A DNA stretch of 64,000 nucleotides from contig CAKMYZ010000001.1 in the NCBI GenBank assembly GCA_929200255.1, forward strand, positions 310,001 through 374,000, in the 5' to 3' direction. Positions 49,447 to 57,160 of this stretch are shown in pieces. The notes under the pieces were generated by a model that saw only the letters and a program-made list of their open reading frames with translations, made no database searches and had not been told where the DNA came from. The stretch comes from an uncultured Alphaproteobacteria bacterium (GTDB lineage: Bacteria; Pseudomonadota; Alphaproteobacteria; Rhodobacterales; Rhodobacteraceae). Both the position numbers and the translations under genes were made by a program. Numbering within the stretch: position 1 is the first letter of the stretch; every line of letters begins with the position of its first letter.

Positions 49447-50136
49447 TCAGCCGTCAGCGTCCCATTTCGCCTCATTGGCCTCAATCGCGGCGATGCGCAG
49501 GGGCGTCTTGGGGTGGCTCATCATCCAGGCGGGTGTCGCAGCACCACGCGCCCCGGTGAGGTTTTCCAGTTTGGCAAATAGGGTCTTTTGCGGTGCGGTT
49601 CCGATACCGGCCTTGACCAACAGGGCAGAGGCATAGGCGTCCGCCTCAAATTCGTCAGCACGCGACAGGCGCGCAGCCAGAAGGCTGGTCAACAGGCCCG
49701 CAATCCATGGACCGACACCGGGAATGAACCGCCCCAGGATCATCGCCAGTGCAGTACGCATCGCATTTTGCCCCGAAAAATCGATCATGCGGCGGCGGGA
49801 ATGGCCCAAGGCAACGTGGCCCAGTTCATGTGCAATGACGGTTGCCAATTCTTCTGATGTGACTTCGCCTGCACGGTATTTGTTGAAAAAGCCGCGCGTG
49901 ATGAAGATACGCCCATCAGGTGCCGCAAGGCCATTGACCGGTTCAATTTCATAGATATGCACCTTGATCCGATCGATATCGAGGGCCTTGGCCATGCGCT
50001 CTGTCAGCGCCCTTAGGGTCGGATCAGCCAGTTCGGTTGATTTATCGTCCAGCTCGCGCGCCGTGCGCCAGACGGAAAACCGATACATGGCAAGGCCGTA
50101 AAGGATGGCCAGCAGGATAGGGGCGAGTTTGATCAT
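49447..50136 (-). CDS. M48 family membrane-bound metalloprotease
   Basis: The 229-residue protein has an N-terminal membrane segment (LAPILLAILYGLAMYRF) and the zinc motif HELGH in TVIAHELGHVALGHSRRR (about 107). A second hydrophobic segment (about 150-175) follows, then a third zinc ligand in a DEFEADAYA motif (about 176). The fold matches M48 (HtpX/Oma1-like) and acts at the inner membrane. It lies downstream of no co-directional gene, and a terminator ends it. Confidence 0.9.
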   Translation of the reverse strand: MIKLAPILLAILYGLAMYRFSVWRTARELDDKSTELADPTLRALTERMAKALDIDRIKVHIYEIEPVNGLAAPDGRIFITRGFFNKYRAGEVTSEELATVIAHELGHVALGHSRRRMIDFSGQNAMRTALAMILGRFIPGVGPWIAGLLTSLLAARLSRADEFEADAYASALLVKAGIGTAPQKTLFAKLENLTGARGAATPAWMMSHPKTPLRIAAIEANEAKWDADG

Positions 50137-50683: not shown

Positions 50684-51628
50684 ATGGTTGCAAAAATGAA
50701 AAAATTTTCATTCGATCCTTTGTTTTGGTTTTGTCTTATCGTGGAGGAAGGGAACCTGACAAAGGCAGCCGCACGCCTGGGTGTCTCTGTGCCGACACTT
50801 TCGCGCCAATTGGCCACGCTTGAAACAAAAATCGGGCATCAGTTGCTTCATCGCAATGCCCGACAGCTTAACCTGACCAATGTCGGGGAAACCTACTATA
50901 ATACTCTGGCGCCCAGCTTGGCTCTTTTGCAGGAACAAGTCGCGCAGTTACAAGATAGTGAGCACGACCTGTCTGGTCGTATTCACCTGACCTGCCCGGA
51001 AACGGCATTTACAACCTATGTTAATGAGTGGGTCTGCGCTTTCCTGAAGGCTCACCCGAAGATTCAGATGAGCATATCATTCGATATTTCCGAACATGCA
51101 TTTGAAACCCAGCAAAGTGATCTTGCAATTGTCATTCGTCCACCGACGAAATCCACACTGACGCAAATTCGCGTGTTGGAGCAAGAAATGTGCCTGACCG
51201 CCGCACCTGAATATCTTGATCAGAACGGCAAACCCGAGACCTTGGACAATCTGGACCAGTTCGATTGCCTGACTCTTGGGGGAAACGATATTTGGCCGTT
51301 TGTCCAAACCGGGTCAGCGGACGTTCCCACACCCACATCACGCTATGCAACACACAGTATGTCTGCATTGATCGAGGCCAGCGTCTCCGGGCTTGGGATT
51401 TGCTATTGCCCGAAGTTTTTGGTGCAGCCACATATTGCGACCGGGAGACTTATCAGGATTTTGCCACACATTCGGCTACCAGATCGCAACATTTATTTGG
51501 TTTATGGTAACCCAAAACTGATGCCTGCGCGGGTCCGAAAACTGCGTGATCATCTGATTGAACAGGCCAGGTCATTCGATAGGGGGCCCAAAAGCAGATA
51601 CCTGAAGAAACCGAATTCTAGTGATTAG
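50684..51628 (+). CDS. LysR-family transcriptional regulator
   Basis: The 314-residue protein has an N-terminal winged helix (about 8-68, DPLFWFCLIVEEGNLTKAAARLGVSVPTLSRQLATLETKIG) and a C-terminal effector-binding domain (about 95-300). It contains typical sequence such as LSGRIHLTCPETAFTTYV. The start at 50684 or 50696 cannot be separated, since neither has a strong ribosome site. It is divergent from the small DUF2798-like gene, its most likely target. The region is AT-richer than average, so the pair may be accessory. Confidence 0.9.
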   Translation: MVAKMKKFSFDPLFWFCLIVEEGNLTKAAARLGVSVPTLSRQLATLETKIGHQLLHRNARQLNLTNVGETYYNTLAPSLALLQEQVAQLQDSEHDLSGRIHLTCPETAFTTYVNEWVCAFLKAHPKIQMSISFDISEHAFETQQSDLAIVIRPPTKSTLTQIRVLEQEMCLTAAPEYLDQNGKPETLDNLDQFDCLTLGGNDIWPFVQTGSADVPTPTSRYATHSMSALIEASVSGLGICYCPKFLVQPHIATGRLIRILPHIRLPDRNIYLVYGNPKLMPARVRKLRDHLIEQARSFDRGPKSRYLKKPNSSD

Positions 51629-51831: not shown

Positions 51832-53019
51832 CTACCGCCCCAGCGTTTTCATCCCAGCCTCGATCCCCGCAAGTGTCATGGGCACCATGCGATCGGCCCC
51901 GAAAATCTCTTGGATCATTTGGATCGACTGCGTGTAGGGCCAGTAGCGCTGTTCCAGCGGGTTGATCCATAGGTGATTGGGCCACTGATCGCGGGCGCGT
52001 TCCAGCCAGGTGTGTCCGGCCTCTTCGTTCCAATGCTCGTTTGCGCCACCTTTAAAGGCGATCTCATAGGGGGACATGCTGGCGTCGCCCACAAAAATGC
52101 ATTTGTAGTCGGGGCCGTAGGTGCGCAGGATGTCCCATGTGGGCGTTTGTGCGTCCCAACGGCGGCGGTTGTCTTTCCACACACCTTCATAAAGGCAGTT
52201 GTGAAAGTAGAAGTATTCGAAGTGTTTGAATTCGGATTTGGCGGCGCTGAACAATTCTTCCACCACTTTGATATGGGGGTCCATGGATCCGCCGATGTCC
52301 AGGAACAACAGCACTTTGACCGCATTGCGCCGCTCTGGCCGGGTTTGCACATCCAGATAGCCGTGTTCGGCCGTCGCCCGAATGGTCCCGTTGAGGTCAA
52401 GCTCTTCATGGGCCCCATCGCGGGCCCAGCGGCGCAGGCGTTTAAGTGCGACCTTGATGTTGCGCGTCCCCAACTCGACCGTATCATCAAGGTTCTTGAA
52501 GTCGCGTTTGTCCCAGACTTTGACCGCGCGCTGGTGGCGGCTTTCGTTCTGGCCGATGCGCACCCCTTCGGGGTTGTAGCCATAAGCACCAAAGGGCGAA
52601 GTGCCCGCCGTCCCAACCCATTTGGACCCACCTTGATGGCGGCCCTTTTGCTCTTCCAGCCGTTTCTTGAGGGTCTCCATCAGCTTGTCAAAGCCACCCA
52701 GCGCGTCAATCTCGGCCTTTTCTGCATCGCTAAGGTGTTTTTCGGCGAGCTTCTCAAGCCAGTCAGCCGGGATATCGACAGCGTTCAGCACAGCCTCGTC
52801 CGGAATGCTGTCCAGCCCTTCAAAGGTAGCCGCGAAGGCGCGGTCAAATTTGTCTAGGTGCCGTTCGTCCTTGACCATGACGGTGCGCGCCAGAAAGTAG
52901 AAGGCCTCAACTTCATATGTCGCCAGCCCCGCTTTCATGCCTTCCAGAAACGACAGGAACTCGCGCAGCGACACGGGCACTCCGTTGCTGCGCAGATTGT
53001 CGAAGAAGGGCAGGAACAT
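51832..53019 (-). CDS. VWA-domain protein (CoxE-like), partner of MoxR ATPase
   Basis: The 395-residue protein has an N-terminal helical region (FFDNLRSNGVPVSLREFLSFLEGMKAGLATY) and a von Willebrand A domain (about 225-340) with MIDAS motif FLDIGGSMD. Proteins like this act with MoxR ATPases as chaperones that insert metals or cofactors. I set the start at 53019, where MFLPFFDNLRSNGVP begins; the longer track ORF runs through the small membrane gene. It is the last gene of a minus-strand series that begins with the MoxR gene at 57160. Confidence 0.88.
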   Translation of the reverse strand: MFLPFFDNLRSNGVPVSLREFLSFLEGMKAGLATYEVEAFYFLARTVMVKDERHLDKFDRAFAATFEGLDSIPDEAVLNAVDIPADWLEKLAEKHLSDAEKAEIDALGGFDKLMETLKKRLEEQKGRHQGGSKWVGTAGTSPFGAYGYNPEGVRIGQNESRHQRAVKVWDKRDFKNLDDTVELGTRNIKVALKRLRRWARDGAHEELDLNGTIRATAEHGYLDVQTRPERRNAVKVLLFLDIGGSMDPHIKVVEELFSAAKSEFKHFEYFYFHNCLYEGVWKDNRRRWDAQTPTWDILRTYGPDYKCIFVGDASMSPYEIAFKGGANEHWNEEAGHTWLERARDQWPNHLWINPLEQRYWPYTQSIQMIQEIFGADRMVPMTLAGIEAGMKTLGR

Positions 53020-53023
53020 CGCG

Positions 53024-53194
53024 TCAGACGTAGCTGCGTTCAATGAAGATGAGTGCGAACAGGCCGACAAGCGCAAAGAGGATCGCAAAAGCGGTCCCCC
53101 ATTGCAACATATCAAGCCGCTTACCGCCACGCGCTTTGGCGCGAAACGCCCCTAAAATCGCGCCGAACACAAAACCCGTGAGTGGAAAGATCAT
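53024..53194 (-). CDS. Small membrane protein, 56 residues (missed by the ORF track)
   Basis: Read from ATG 53194 to TGA 53024, the product begins MIFPLTGFVFGAILGAFRAK and ends LIFIERSYV. It has two hydrophobic segments separated by a basic RAKARGGKRLD stretch. It sits exactly between the DUF2927 gene (stop 53209) and the VWA gene (start 53019), 4-15 bases from each. This tight spacing, the good hydropathy pattern and my recollection of similar small proteins in Rhodobacterales support a real gene, though its function is unknown. Confidence 0.75.
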   Translation of the reverse strand: MIFPLTGFVFGAILGAFRAKARGGKRLDMLQWGTAFAILFALVGLFALIFIERSYV

Positions 53195-53208
53195 CTGGTA
53201 AGCCCTTG

Positions 53209-54552
53209 TCAGCTAGGCGGAATATCCGGTGGCAGTGAGGCGATTTCATTAAGGCGGTCGATCACCTCTTCGCGGCTGCCAAACCCATAAAGCCCCCATC
53301 CCAGACTGTCCAGCCGCAGCGCCATGCCTGCGTCAGTATCATCCTGCAGGTCCAGCGCTTCGGCCTTGAACATCATCAAGAGCGTCAGCAGGGCTGCGTT
53401 TTCGTGTTTCTGTGCAACCGGGATGGCCCGATCCGTGATGGCAATTGTGGCCTCTGCATTGCCGGATATCAGCGTGAAGGCGGCCAGTTGCACAGCGATA
53501 TGGGCCGAGTGAATATCGGTGATGGGGTTTTGCGCATAGACCCGGCGGGCGGCATTGAAGGCACCCAGCGCCAGCGTGGCGTCATTTCCAATTTGCAGTC
53601 GCCCATAGACGTAATTGGCAAACCCTTCGCGCGGGCCCGTCCAGCCCAGCGACTGCCCGATGGCAATCGCCCTGCTAGCGGCCTGCCTGCGGCGGCTGTT
53701 TGGGGCGCTGCCCAAAGCAAGTTCCATCGCGGTGATCCATTCGCGTGACGTATCTGATGGGATTTGCCCGCCGCGCCGTTGGCCACGTGGATTCAGGCGG
53801 CGCAGGATCCGGGGCAGGCGTTCGGCCACCTGCTGTTCACTCATCCCGCTTTGCAGTTCTGGCGCATAATAGGCGCGTAGGATCAGCATATCAAAACCGG
53901 TCAGCACCGCATGGATGTTATCGTCGTTAAAGACAGAGTCAGGCAGGCGGTAAAGGTCATTCAGCGGACCCAGCGCCTGCGCCAGTTCTTCGTGCAGGCA
54001 ATCGCGGATTTCTTGTGGGGTCACATCGGAGGGCAGAAAAATCGCGGCTTTTTCGCGTTGCCGCACCGTTGCCCAGTTCAGCCTTGGGGTGTTGCGGGCG
54101 GCCCGCAATTCTGCCCAGCTTTGCACACGCGGCACAACAAAGCAGGCCGCATTCGGGGCCACACGTTGCAGGGTGCGATTGGGCACCGCCTCGATCACGA
54201 TATTGGCGTCATCCTCAGCGGTGAACCGAATGTCGATCTGTGCTTCGCGGCGCAACCGGTTCAGCAAATCGGTAAGATCATTGACGGTTGTTTGGTTGAC
54301 CGGCCCCTGGACGCGTACGGTGATGGGTCCTTCGAACCGCGACAGCACCGGCAGCTTGCGCCCGCTTTCCATCCGAAAGGCAAGGTCAATGAAATCCAGC
54401 GCAATTTCAGAGTTGGGCCGCATGGCCGGTCCGGGACTGGCGGCACGAAAACGGCTGGCCTCTGGGAAATCCAGACGGATCGGGTCGGGCCCAGCGGGCA
54501 TCTGGGTGCAGCCCATGAGTGCTGCGAAGGCGATGACAAAAAGGTGCTTCAT
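53209..54552 (-). CDS. DUF2927 domain lipoprotein
   Basis: The 447-residue product has a lipobox (FAALMGCTQ, Cys at about 15) and a DUF2927 domain (about 90-270). The domain includes FTAEDDANIVIEAV, a zinc-protease-like region without an intact HExxH, and LHEELAQALGPLNDLYRLPDSVFNDDNIH, a HEE-type metal motif. A C-terminal tetratricopeptide-like region follows. Its start overlaps the GNAT stop by ATGA, coupling the genes. Function is unknown; the gene sits in the MoxR-VWA cluster. Confidence 0.85.
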   Translation of the reverse strand: MKHLFVIAFAALMGCTQMPAGPDPIRLDFPEASRFRAASPGPAMRPNSEIALDFIDLAFRMESGRKLPVLSRFEGPITVRVQGPVNQTTVNDLTDLLNRLRREAQIDIRFTAEDDANIVIEAVPNRTLQRVAPNAACFVVPRVQSWAELRAARNTPRLNWATVRQREKAAIFLPSDVTPQEIRDCLHEELAQALGPLNDLYRLPDSVFNDDNIHAVLTGFDMLILRAYYAPELQSGMSEQQVAERLPRILRRLNPRGQRRGGQIPSDTSREWITAMELALGSAPNSRRRQAASRAIAIGQSLGWTGPREGFANYVYGRLQIGNDATLALGAFNAARRVYAQNPITDIHSAHIAVQLAAFTLISGNAEATIAITDRAIPVAQKHENAALLTLLMMFKAEALDLQDDTDAGMALRLDSLGWGLYGFGSREEVIDRLNEIASLPPDIPPS

Positions 54553-55007
54553 CCGGGGCGCTGGTATTTGATGAAATTGGTGTGCTGGCCCACGCGGTCA
54601 TAGAGCCTGCGACCTGCCAAGTTGTCATCTTGTGTGAGCCAATAGACCGCAGGCGCGCCGGCGTCATCAGCGGCGGCATAGACAGCCGCGATCAACCTGC
54701 GCCCGATACCCGTGCCGCGCACAGATGGGTCTGCATATAAATCCTGCAGATAGCAGACGTTTTCCACCCGCCAGCAATGGCGGTGAAACAGATAGTGGAC
54801 AAGCCCCACAACACGCCCGTCCTGTTCAGCGACAAGGGCGTTGAAATCAGCGCTGTCGTCTCCAAGTAGCCGCGAAAATGTGCTTTGATAGACGGCCTCT
54901 GGCACGCTGGATTTGTAGAACGTCAGATAGTCGGTCCAAAGATCGCGCCAAACGGCCTCATCATTGGCCGCCAATGGACGAATTGTAACGGTGGGTGCGG
55001 TAGTCAT
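54549..55007 (-). CDS. GNAT family N-acetyltransferase
   Basis: The 152-residue protein has the GNAT acetyl-CoA loop DLYADPSVRGTGIGRRLIAAVYAAADDAGAP (about 85-115) and a C-terminal NLAGRRLYDRVG. It acetylates an unknown amine or protein. I chose ATG 55007 (MTTAPTVTIRPLAANDE); the track start lies 33 codons upstream in unlikely sequence. It overlaps the DUF2927 gene by four bases at its stop (54549-54552), so both are probably co-expressed. Confidence 0.88.
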   Translation of the reverse strand: MTTAPTVTIRPLAANDEAVWRDLWTDYLTFYKSSVPEAVYQSTFSRLLGDDSADFNALVAEQDGRVVGLVHYLFHRHCWRVENVCYLQDLYADPSVRGTGIGRRLIAAVYAAADDAGAPAVYWLTQDDNLAGRRLYDRVGQHTNFIKYQRPG

Positions 55008-55163
55008 ATGGATGCTCGTGTTCGGCTTTTGCCAACAATAGCGGGCATTGCTGGGTTGGCCAGTCAATTCGCCGTGGGGTGCCCCTGCTGACCATGTCCT
55101 ACCCACATGGCATTATTCCAGCACATGACAGGCGGCGGACTTCGCCTATGCCCTGACCTCTGG

Positions 55164-56015
55164 CTACATGCGGGATCGACGTAATGCACGGATATCCTCG
55201 GTGGAGGGGCGTGCGGCGTTACGCTGTCGTTCCGCATCTGCCATCCGGCGCGAGACCACATCTTCCCATGCCAGCACTGCGGTCGCAAAGAACCAGCTTG
55301 AGGCCCAGGTCATGACCAACACGCCTCCGAGGACAAAGGGGACGGCTGGCATCAACTCCCAGGTCAAGGTCTCTCCGCTCATGAGGTCCCAAATCGCAAA
55401 TGCGATCATGCCAAATACCGCCCAGACTTCACCAAAGATCGAAAATATGTGACCACCCAAAAGCCATACCGCCATGACAAGCAGCAAGCTGAACATGCCT
55501 TTGCCGAGCCCGGAGAAATAGTTGATATCGCCTCCTTTTGGCGATGCGGCATAGGCAGCACCTACCATCGGAACGGCAAAGGCGGCTTTGACGATGGCTG
55601 CGGGCGCAAGCAGTGCCAGCAGGATGCCAGACCAATAGGCCGAAACACCAAAGAGACCGGCAAGTAGGCCAATCGGGTCAAGTTCAACACCGGCCTGCGT
55701 GATCGTCCAGAGAACGAGCCAAGACGCGCCGTAGACAAAGATGTCCGTTCCGATGAAAATCACGCAGAAGATGGCGCTGACCGTCAACAGGGTGCCATGA
55801 TCGAGGGGGTTTCGGTGCCCGCGTGCAGCGAGTGCGCAGCGCAACCCGACAATCAAGAGGCCCGCGCTGACAATGCCGGGCACAAAAAGGCCCGCAACTG
55901 GCAAGAAACTCAGGAGCGAAAAGAGGAATGCAAAGATTGCGATCAGAGGTAGGATTGCAAGGTATCGCCAGAAGGTAAACAGCGACAGCGGAAGCGAGCG
56001 AATAAATAAAGGCAT
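55164..56015 (-). CDS. Multi-pass inner membrane protein
   Basis: The 283-residue protein has five or more hydrophobic segments (for example FLPVAGLFVPGIVSAGLLIVGLRCALAARG, LLTVSAIFCVIFIGTDIFVYG, SLLLVMAVWLLGGHIFSIFG). The C-terminal tail is charged (RRMADAERQRNAARPSTEDIRALRRSRM). I recognise no family. The start is uncertain among ATG 56015 and upstream Mets at 56036 and 56063; I chose 56015 because the hydrophobic segment begins there. It sits between MoxR and GNAT in the same direction. Confidence 0.7.
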   Translation of the reverse strand: MPLFIRSLPLSLFTFWRYLAILPLIAIFAFLFSLLSFLPVAGLFVPGIVSAGLLIVGLRCALAARGHRNPLDHGTLLTVSAIFCVIFIGTDIFVYGASWLVLWTITQAGVELDPIGLLAGLFGVSAYWSGILLALLAPAAIVKAAFAVPMVGAAYAASPKGGDINYFSGLGKGMFSLLLVMAVWLLGGHIFSIFGEVWAVFGMIAFAIWDLMSGETLTWELMPAVPFVLGGVLVMTWASSWFFATAVLAWEDVVSRRMADAERQRNAARPSTEDIRALRRSRM

Positions 56016-56320
56016 ACCGATGATATGGGAATGCATACCACAGAATACAATGGTATACCGCAATCTATAGGTGTGCCTCTGGCCTAGATGACGTAGGGAG
56101 TTTGACTGGGTGACGTTTGTTGGGCGGGGTTATCGCATCCATTAAGTGAAGCAAATTCAACGCACTGTATCGCGAATATCGTGTTGAATCTGCGCTCCAA
56201 GCGCAATCGTTCATACAACTCCACATTTTGTCCGCATTCGGAAGCGATCCGATGTGTCCTCGGGGCGGCCGCCGCTGATTGGGCCATCAGTTCACCACAA
56301 GGCGATGCGCGCAGCGCCGG
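56016..56320. other. Intergenic region between MoxR and the membrane protein gene
   Basis: About 305 bases without a convincing gene; a 67-residue track ORF here lacks a good start and recognisable domain. It lies downstream of the MoxR stop on the minus strand and probably carries the promoter for the membrane-protein/GNAT/DUF2927/VWA genes. I see no clear terminator. Confidence 0.45.
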
Positions 56321-57160
56321 TTAGCCACCGCGCCGCGCCATAAATGCCAGACGCTCAAACAAATGCACGTCCTGCTCATTTTTGAGCAGGGCACCATGCA
56401 GTTTCGGCAGTGCATTGACCCCGTCACGTTTAAGGTCTTCTGGCGACAGGTCTTCGGCCAAGAGTAGTTTCAACCAATCCAGTACCTCTGACGTCGAGGG
56501 CTTCTTCTTTAGCCCCGCCGTATCGCGGATCTCGTAAAACTGCGTGAGCGCTGTGGTTAGCAACTGCTCTTTGATCCCCGGGTGGTGCACTTCGACGATC
56601 TGGCGCATCGTGTCGATCTCGGGAAAGCGGATGTAGTGGAAAAAGCAGCGGCGCAGGAAAGCGTCGGGCAGTTCTTTTTCATTGTTGGACGTGATGATCA
56701 CAATGGGGCGGTGGATCGCCTTGACCGTCTCGCCGGTTTCGTAGACGTGGAATTCCATCCGGTCGAGTTCCTGCAACAGGTCGTTGGGAAATTCGATGTC
56801 GGCCTTGTCGATTTCATCGATCAGCAACACCACTTTGCCTTCGGCCCCAAAGGCCTGCCAGAGCTTGCCCTTCTTGATATAGTTACCTACATCATGCACC
56901 CGCGCGTCACCCAACTGGCTGTCGCGCAAACGGCTGACAGCGTCATATTCATAAAGACCCTGCTGCGCCTTCGTTGTCGATTTGATGTGCCATTCAATCA
57001 TTGGCAGGCCAAGTGAGGCGCTGACCTGACGGGCAAGTTCTGTCTTGCCGGTACCGGGCTCACCCTTGACCAGCAGCGGGCGCTCTAGCGTCACGGCTGC
57101 ATTGACGGCCATGGTCAGATCATCCGTGGCAACATAGCTGTCGGTCCCGGTAAATTGCAT
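56321..57160 (-). CDS. MoxR-type AAA+ ATPase
   Basis: The 279-residue ATPase has Walker A LVKGEPGTGKTEL (about 34), Walker B VVLLIDEIDKADIEFPNDLLQELD, sensor I in IVIITSNNEKELPDAFLRRC and the MoxR-specific FPEIDTMRQIV region. MoxR ATPases work with VWA proteins, such as the one at 51832-53019, as chaperones of metalloenzyme complexes. The true start is ATG 57160 (MQFTGTDSYVATDD); the track's upstream 230 residues read antisense through dksA. It is the first gene of a minus-strand series. Confidence 0.92.
   Translation of the reverse strand: MQFTGTDSYVATDDLTMAVNAAVTLERPLLVKGEPGTGKTELARQVSASLGLPMIEWHIKSTTKAQQGLYEYDAVSRLRDSQLGDARVHDVGNYIKKGKLWQAFGAEGKVVLLIDEIDKADIEFPNDLLQELDRMEFHVYETGETVKAIHRPIVIITSNNEKELPDAFLRRCFFHYIRFPEIDTMRQIVEVHHPGIKEQLLTTALTQFYEIRDTAGLKKKPSTSEVLDWLKLLLAEDLSPEDLKRDGVNALPKLHGALLKNEQDVHLFERLAFMARRGG

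Follow-up and report, generated by a model that had tools for sequence, protein, structure and literature searches.

The short gene described here, hereafter SMALL, lies in a conserved gene series within the window, by which we mean the whole 64,000-nucleotide stretch of DNA that was analysed. The relevant features are:

49447..50136, minus strand: M48 membrane metalloprotease gene, the next conserved member of the series past the VWA gene
50684..51628, plus strand: LysR gene, between the VWA and M48 genes
51832..53019, minus strand: VWA gene (VWA_CoxE, PF05762), starting 4 nt past the SMALL stop
53024..53194, minus strand: SMALL, encoding a predicted two-helix membrane protein of 56 aa, supported by its open reading frame, purifying selection, conserved residues and a hairpin model
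53203..53207, minus strand: Shine-Dalgarno-like AAGGG, 8 nt before the SMALL ATG, read from the sequence and also present in near relatives (L059 and L060)
53209..54552, minus strand: DUF2927 gene, probable lipoprotein (N-terminus ...LMGC), ending 14 nt before SMALL
54549..55106, minus strand: GNAT acetyltransferase gene, also part of the series
56321..57160, minus strand: MoxR-type AAA+ ATPase gene, 279 aa when read from an internal ATG (the 511-aa ORF in the list has its start too far upstream)

The SMALL reading frame runs from an ATG at 53194 to a TGA at 53026..53024 and encodes a 56-residue product, MIFPLTGFVFGAILGAFRAKARGGKRLDMLQWGTAFAILFALVGLFALIFIERSYV. It occupies the gap between DUF2927 and VWA, as the original prediction had stated, with 14 nt separating it from the DUF2927 stop (which ends at 53209) and 4 nt from the VWA ATG at 53019. 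Its reported absence from the ORF track is true only under a length cut-off: the default of 60 aa is the sole cause, and SMALL is listed once the minimum is set to 40 aa. The accompanying suggestion that automatic calls would miss such a gene is doubtful, because RefSeq-derived records do include 55-aa plasmid homologues, under the label of hypothetical proteins. SMALL is almost certainly a real, conserved gene.

The gene order in most Rhodobacteraceae loci examined is MoxR-(GNAT)-DUF2927-SMALL-VWA-...-M48, with DksA divergent from MoxR; in the window, the LysR gene and a 78-aa ORF stand between VWA and M48. The distance from the SMALL stop to the VWA start has a median of 4 nt and is at most 30 nt in 114 of 128 distinct loci, with many 1-nt stop/start overlaps, and this closeness suggests translational coupling. 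A lipobox-like motif, found with a loose pattern, is present near the DUF2927 N-terminus in 138/149 loci. SMALL is also retained where DUF2927 is gone, and four loci (L069, L084, L117 and L179) have the arrangement MoxR-SMALL-VWA without DUF2927. The genome that contains the window carries a second DUF2927 gene (G000:C2:243397-244056), which outscores the window copy. A 299-aa hydrophobic protein without a Pfam family is encoded between MoxR and GNAT in the window (55164..56063, minus strand); among the compared loci it was seen only in the nearest relatives, L059 and L060.

Variability of SMALL at codon positions 1, 2 and 3 is 0.20, 0.11 and 0.40, respectively, among 33 distinct sequences from same-genus and near-relative genomes, and the closest pairs have pN of 0.02-0.07 versus pS of 0.15-0.69 (pN/pS ∼0.08-0.2). 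SMALL is under strong purifying selection. Across 151 distinct proteins, Gly11, Gly15, Ala19, Gly24 and Asp28 are conserved in at least 99%, Gln31 in 94% and Arg53 in 87%. Homologs occur in all 36 other genomes of the same genus. In a sample of 298 Rhodobacteraceae genomes, one per genus, a single-sequence search detected SMALL in 272; a profile recovered 14 of the 26 that had been missed, and profile matches within VWA loci added three further copies, one in G213 (L117) and diverged ones in G306 and G346 (L114 and L116), all in genomes that bear VWA and had seemed to be without SMALL. This brings the total to ∼289/298 genera (∼97%). Neither the single-sequence nor the profile search found SMALL in four VWA-bearing genomes (G076, G163, G234 and G282). 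Four matches contain one internal TAG (G360:C1:1956305-1956466, G378:C11:150729-150890, G384:C29:3497-3658 and G302:C24:13337-13489), and each is either a pseudogene or a match that extends past the start. Conservation of SMALL next to VWA in Rhodobacterales, which the original prediction had put forward as a check, is thus borne out, and loss of SMALL from sister genomes that keep VWA, which had been named as grounds for refutation, is rare enough not to refute it, with SMALL in 269 of the 273 genera that have VWA. Among the 337 genomes of a class-wide sample, clear matches were confined to its five Rhodobacteraceae, with one other marginal match (E = 9e-4). In these searches, then, the SMALL family was not found with confidence in Alphaproteobacteria outside Rhodobacteraceae.

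An AlphaFold2 model built from an alignment of nine homologs places helices at residues 2-21 and 26-55 (mean pLDDT of 91.8), in agreement with the two hydrophobic segments originally read from the sequence, and SMALL is predicted with high confidence to form a two-helix membrane hairpin. The short first helix carries a glycine zipper, G7xxxG11xxxG15xxxA19, whose positions are conserved at 71, 99, 100 and 99%, respectively, in the 151 proteins, and it is joined to the long second helix by a positively charged turn, RAKxRGGxxxD. The mean net charge over the same proteins is +3.0 for the turn versus +0.5 for the termini, and by the positive-inside rule this bias predicts that the turn is cytoplasmic and that both ends are periplasmic. 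A sequence search of solved structures in the PDB with SMALL returned nothing significant, a fold search of solved structures with the hairpin returned nothing at E ≤ 0.001, and the two-helix hairpin fold gives no function. No family in Pfam, NCBIfam or PHROG matches SMALL above threshold. The RseC/MucC family (PF04246) reaches 12.5 bits against a gathering cut-off of 24.4 (E = 0.14), with weak matches in 25/36 members of the SMALL family (best E = 0.014). RseC/MucC, DUF456, holin and Gly-zipper identities were all rejected, their matches being weak or limited to few members, and we ascribe such matches to the composition of glycine-rich membrane helices. SMALL belongs to an undescribed family of small inner-membrane proteins.

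The original prediction cast SMALL as a small membrane component of the MoxR-VWA system, and its distribution both supports and limits this idea. SMALL was detected in 269/273 genera with VWA versus 20/25 without (Fisher p ∼3e-4), where, of the 25 genera without VWA, 20 are among those listed and five were inferred from other searches, and where, of the 20 with SMALL, 13 were inspected in place and lack VWA genome-wide, two have loci cut short by the contig end just past SMALL, and the other five (G148, G208, G278, G291 and G313) have uninspected SMALL loci that could be the plasmid-type paralogue described below. Because the association is still significant despite the VWA-less genera, we consider SMALL and VWA to be linked yet separable. 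On a tree of five flanking and operon genes (FAD monooxygenase, DksA, M48, methyltransferase and exonuclease), VWA must have changed state at least 7 times to account for the 12 VWA-less rows, and well supported branches force 4 of these changes. Conversely, a VWA orthologue occurs in 111 of the 237 class-sample genomes outside Rhodobacteraceae, mostly at ∼50-65% identity. In 18 of 26 such loci MoxR adjoins VWA (mostly at 20-170 nt, once at ∼740 nt), and no small membrane gene was seen between MoxR and VWA in these 18; a two-helix ORF precedes VWA in only one of the 26 (L202), and this ORF has no significant similarity to SMALL. Two-helix small ORFs lie just before VWA at L115, L119 and L202, in genomes where the profile finds no SMALL; none is significantly similar to the family, and they could represent either analogues or copies that have diverged strongly.

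Metal insertion is the task of the MoxR-VWA pairs whose roles are known, namely NorQD (PMC9976466, PMC13036017) and CoxDE (PMC3471820). The pair CoxD/CoxE serves the maturation of CO dehydrogenase, and CoxD, which lacks a transmembrane segment, is nonetheless bound to the membrane (PMC3471820), so that systems of this kind are able to operate there. The VWA protein encoded beside SMALL resembles CoxE in having a CoxE-like domain (PF05762); however, in two CODH-type/molybdoenzyme clusters on Rhodobacterales plasmids MoxR directly adjoins VWA and, unlike at the SMALL locus, no gene for a small membrane protein intervenes. Another precedent is offered by NorE and NorF, small membrane proteins encoded beside the MoxR-VWA pair NorQ/NorD in the norCBQDEF cluster of Paracoccus denitrificans (PMC13036017). 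SMALL differs from these in lying between DUF2927 and VWA, in being near-universal in Rhodobacteraceae and in being retained without VWA, and no sequence relation to them emerged here. A search with the SMALL profile gave no match at E ≤ 10 in a 45-kb stretch of S. meliloti pSymA, which is unannotated and was chosen for its expected nor genes, and in which NorF was not located.

Given these observations, the reading that we prefer, albeit tentatively and with somewhat less than even confidence in the mechanism as a whole, is that SMALL acts in its own right in the inner membrane as a helper for the maturation of the envelope or of metalloenzymes, associated with MoxR-VWA without being its obligate subunit. 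Through its glycine zipper SMALL would join a small assembly in the membrane, the cytoplasmic turn offering a docking surface, and this assembly may aid envelope or metalloprotein maturation by the operon neighbors of SMALL, namely the MoxR-VWA chaperone, the DUF2927 lipoprotein and the M48 protease. It would act alongside MoxR-VWA and keep its function once MoxR-VWA is gone.

The main competing explanation is that SMALL is an accessory membrane subunit that tethers VWA/MoxR to the inner membrane, close to a target that lies in the membrane, much as NorE/NorF accompany NorQD, its gene having been inserted between MoxR and VWA in the rhodobacteraceal ancestor. The norE/norF precedent, the conserved turn on the predicted cytoplasmic side, the co-occurrence with VWA, the short spacing and overlapping stop and start codons, and the loci where SMALL stands between MoxR and VWA without DUF2927 would all be expected of such a subunit, and the 4-nt spacing and the correlation with VWA also fit an accessory role of this kind. 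However, a dedicated component would be lost along with VWA and MoxR and be present wherever the orthologous pair occurs, whereas SMALL persists in 20 of 25 VWA-less genera, several of these losses being independent, and was not found with confidence beside the MoxR-VWA orthologues outside the family. Retention of SMALL where MoxR-VWA has been lost argues that it is not an obligate subunit, and the MoxR-VWA machine probably does not include SMALL as a constant component. The proximity and correlated presence behind the original prediction therefore stand, the VWA-less genera with SMALL and the Alphaproteobacteria that have VWA only lower the strict subunit reading, and we consider an accessory subunit possible but rather unlikely.

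The VWA-less genera direct attention to another neighbor. In 11 of the 13 that were inspected, SMALL immediately precedes M48, on the same strand and at a distance of ∼10-415 nt. These eleven loci (L073, L074, L081, L137, L153, L157, L167, L169, L174, L175 and L176) have no MoxR match, and VWA is absent from the genomes. This arrangement, together with the position of M48 as the conserved gene that follows in the series, and the presence of an M48 orthologue in 284/298 genera, makes it attractive to regard SMALL as a partner or regulator that anchors, activates or protects the protease. Deletion of the intervening VWA gene would, however, partly yield the same adjacency, and co-distribution is weak: SMALL occurs in 12/14 genera without an M48 orthologue versus ∼275/284 with one (p = 0.09), and M48 is present in most genera without SMALL. 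No M48 gene lies beside the plasmid paralogue in the three annotated stretches either, and we regard an M48 partnership as distinctly unlikely.

This paralogue provides a second setting for the family. Homologs less than 60% identical to SMALL occur in 31 plasmid records, with 41-53% identity in the 20 listed. The paralogue is a 55-aa "hypothetical protein" (WP_037929736.1, WP_057796579.1 and WP_043872279.1); these plasmid proteins are homologous to SMALL, with 41-51% identity and the same invariant residues. The loci L067, L068 and L070 are on roseobacter plasmids (NZ_CP054602.1, NZ_CP045411.1 and NZ_CP010652.1). In three annotated stretches the gene is flanked by lnt and a penicillin-acylase gene, and its operon also holds SCO, DsbB, thioredoxin, PCuAC, M23, DUF411, ZIP, lspA and Caa3_CtaG genes (Pfam names were checked for two); no MoxR, VWA or M48 gene is present in the three stretches that were read. 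Unlike SMALL, the paralogue thus belongs to a copper/cytochrome-oxidase/lipoprotein operon, on plasmids that are mostly conjugative. The same operon type houses a second SMALL copy in other genomes (L071, L072, L085 and L086). The plasmid match of Pseudorhodobacter turbinis (L069) is an exception, being of the chromosomal type with the order MoxR-SMALL-VWA-M48.

A non-coding or chance ORF, for example a translational coupling spacer before VWA, would suit a short frame in a short gap, but its probability is negligible, as the selection pattern (pN/pS ∼0.1-0.2) and the residues invariant across 150 distinct proteins contradict it, and SMALL is moreover retained without VWA and has an annotated paralogue elsewhere.

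For the maturation helper that we prefer, the metal-inserting roles of MoxR-VWA pairs and the copper/oxidase setting of the paralogue together suggest a function in the envelope or in metalloenzyme maturation, the link to metals and envelope being read from gene neighborhood. More broadly, and we think improbably, SMALL could define a new core rhodobacteraceal family of membrane-maturation factors active both with the chromosomal MoxR-VWA/DUF2927/M48 operon and with the plasmid copper/cytochrome-oxidase operon; it would then be a membrane scaffold common to the two, serving the maturation of metalloproteins or lipoproteins.

These results correct the composition of a MoxR-VWA operon that is widespread, to which the M48 protease belongs and in which SMALL is separable from VWA. 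The VWA-less genera amount to natural knock-outs that allow the roles of the two to be separated, and SMALL adds an undescribed, near-universal family of small membrane proteins to the Rhodobacteraceae.
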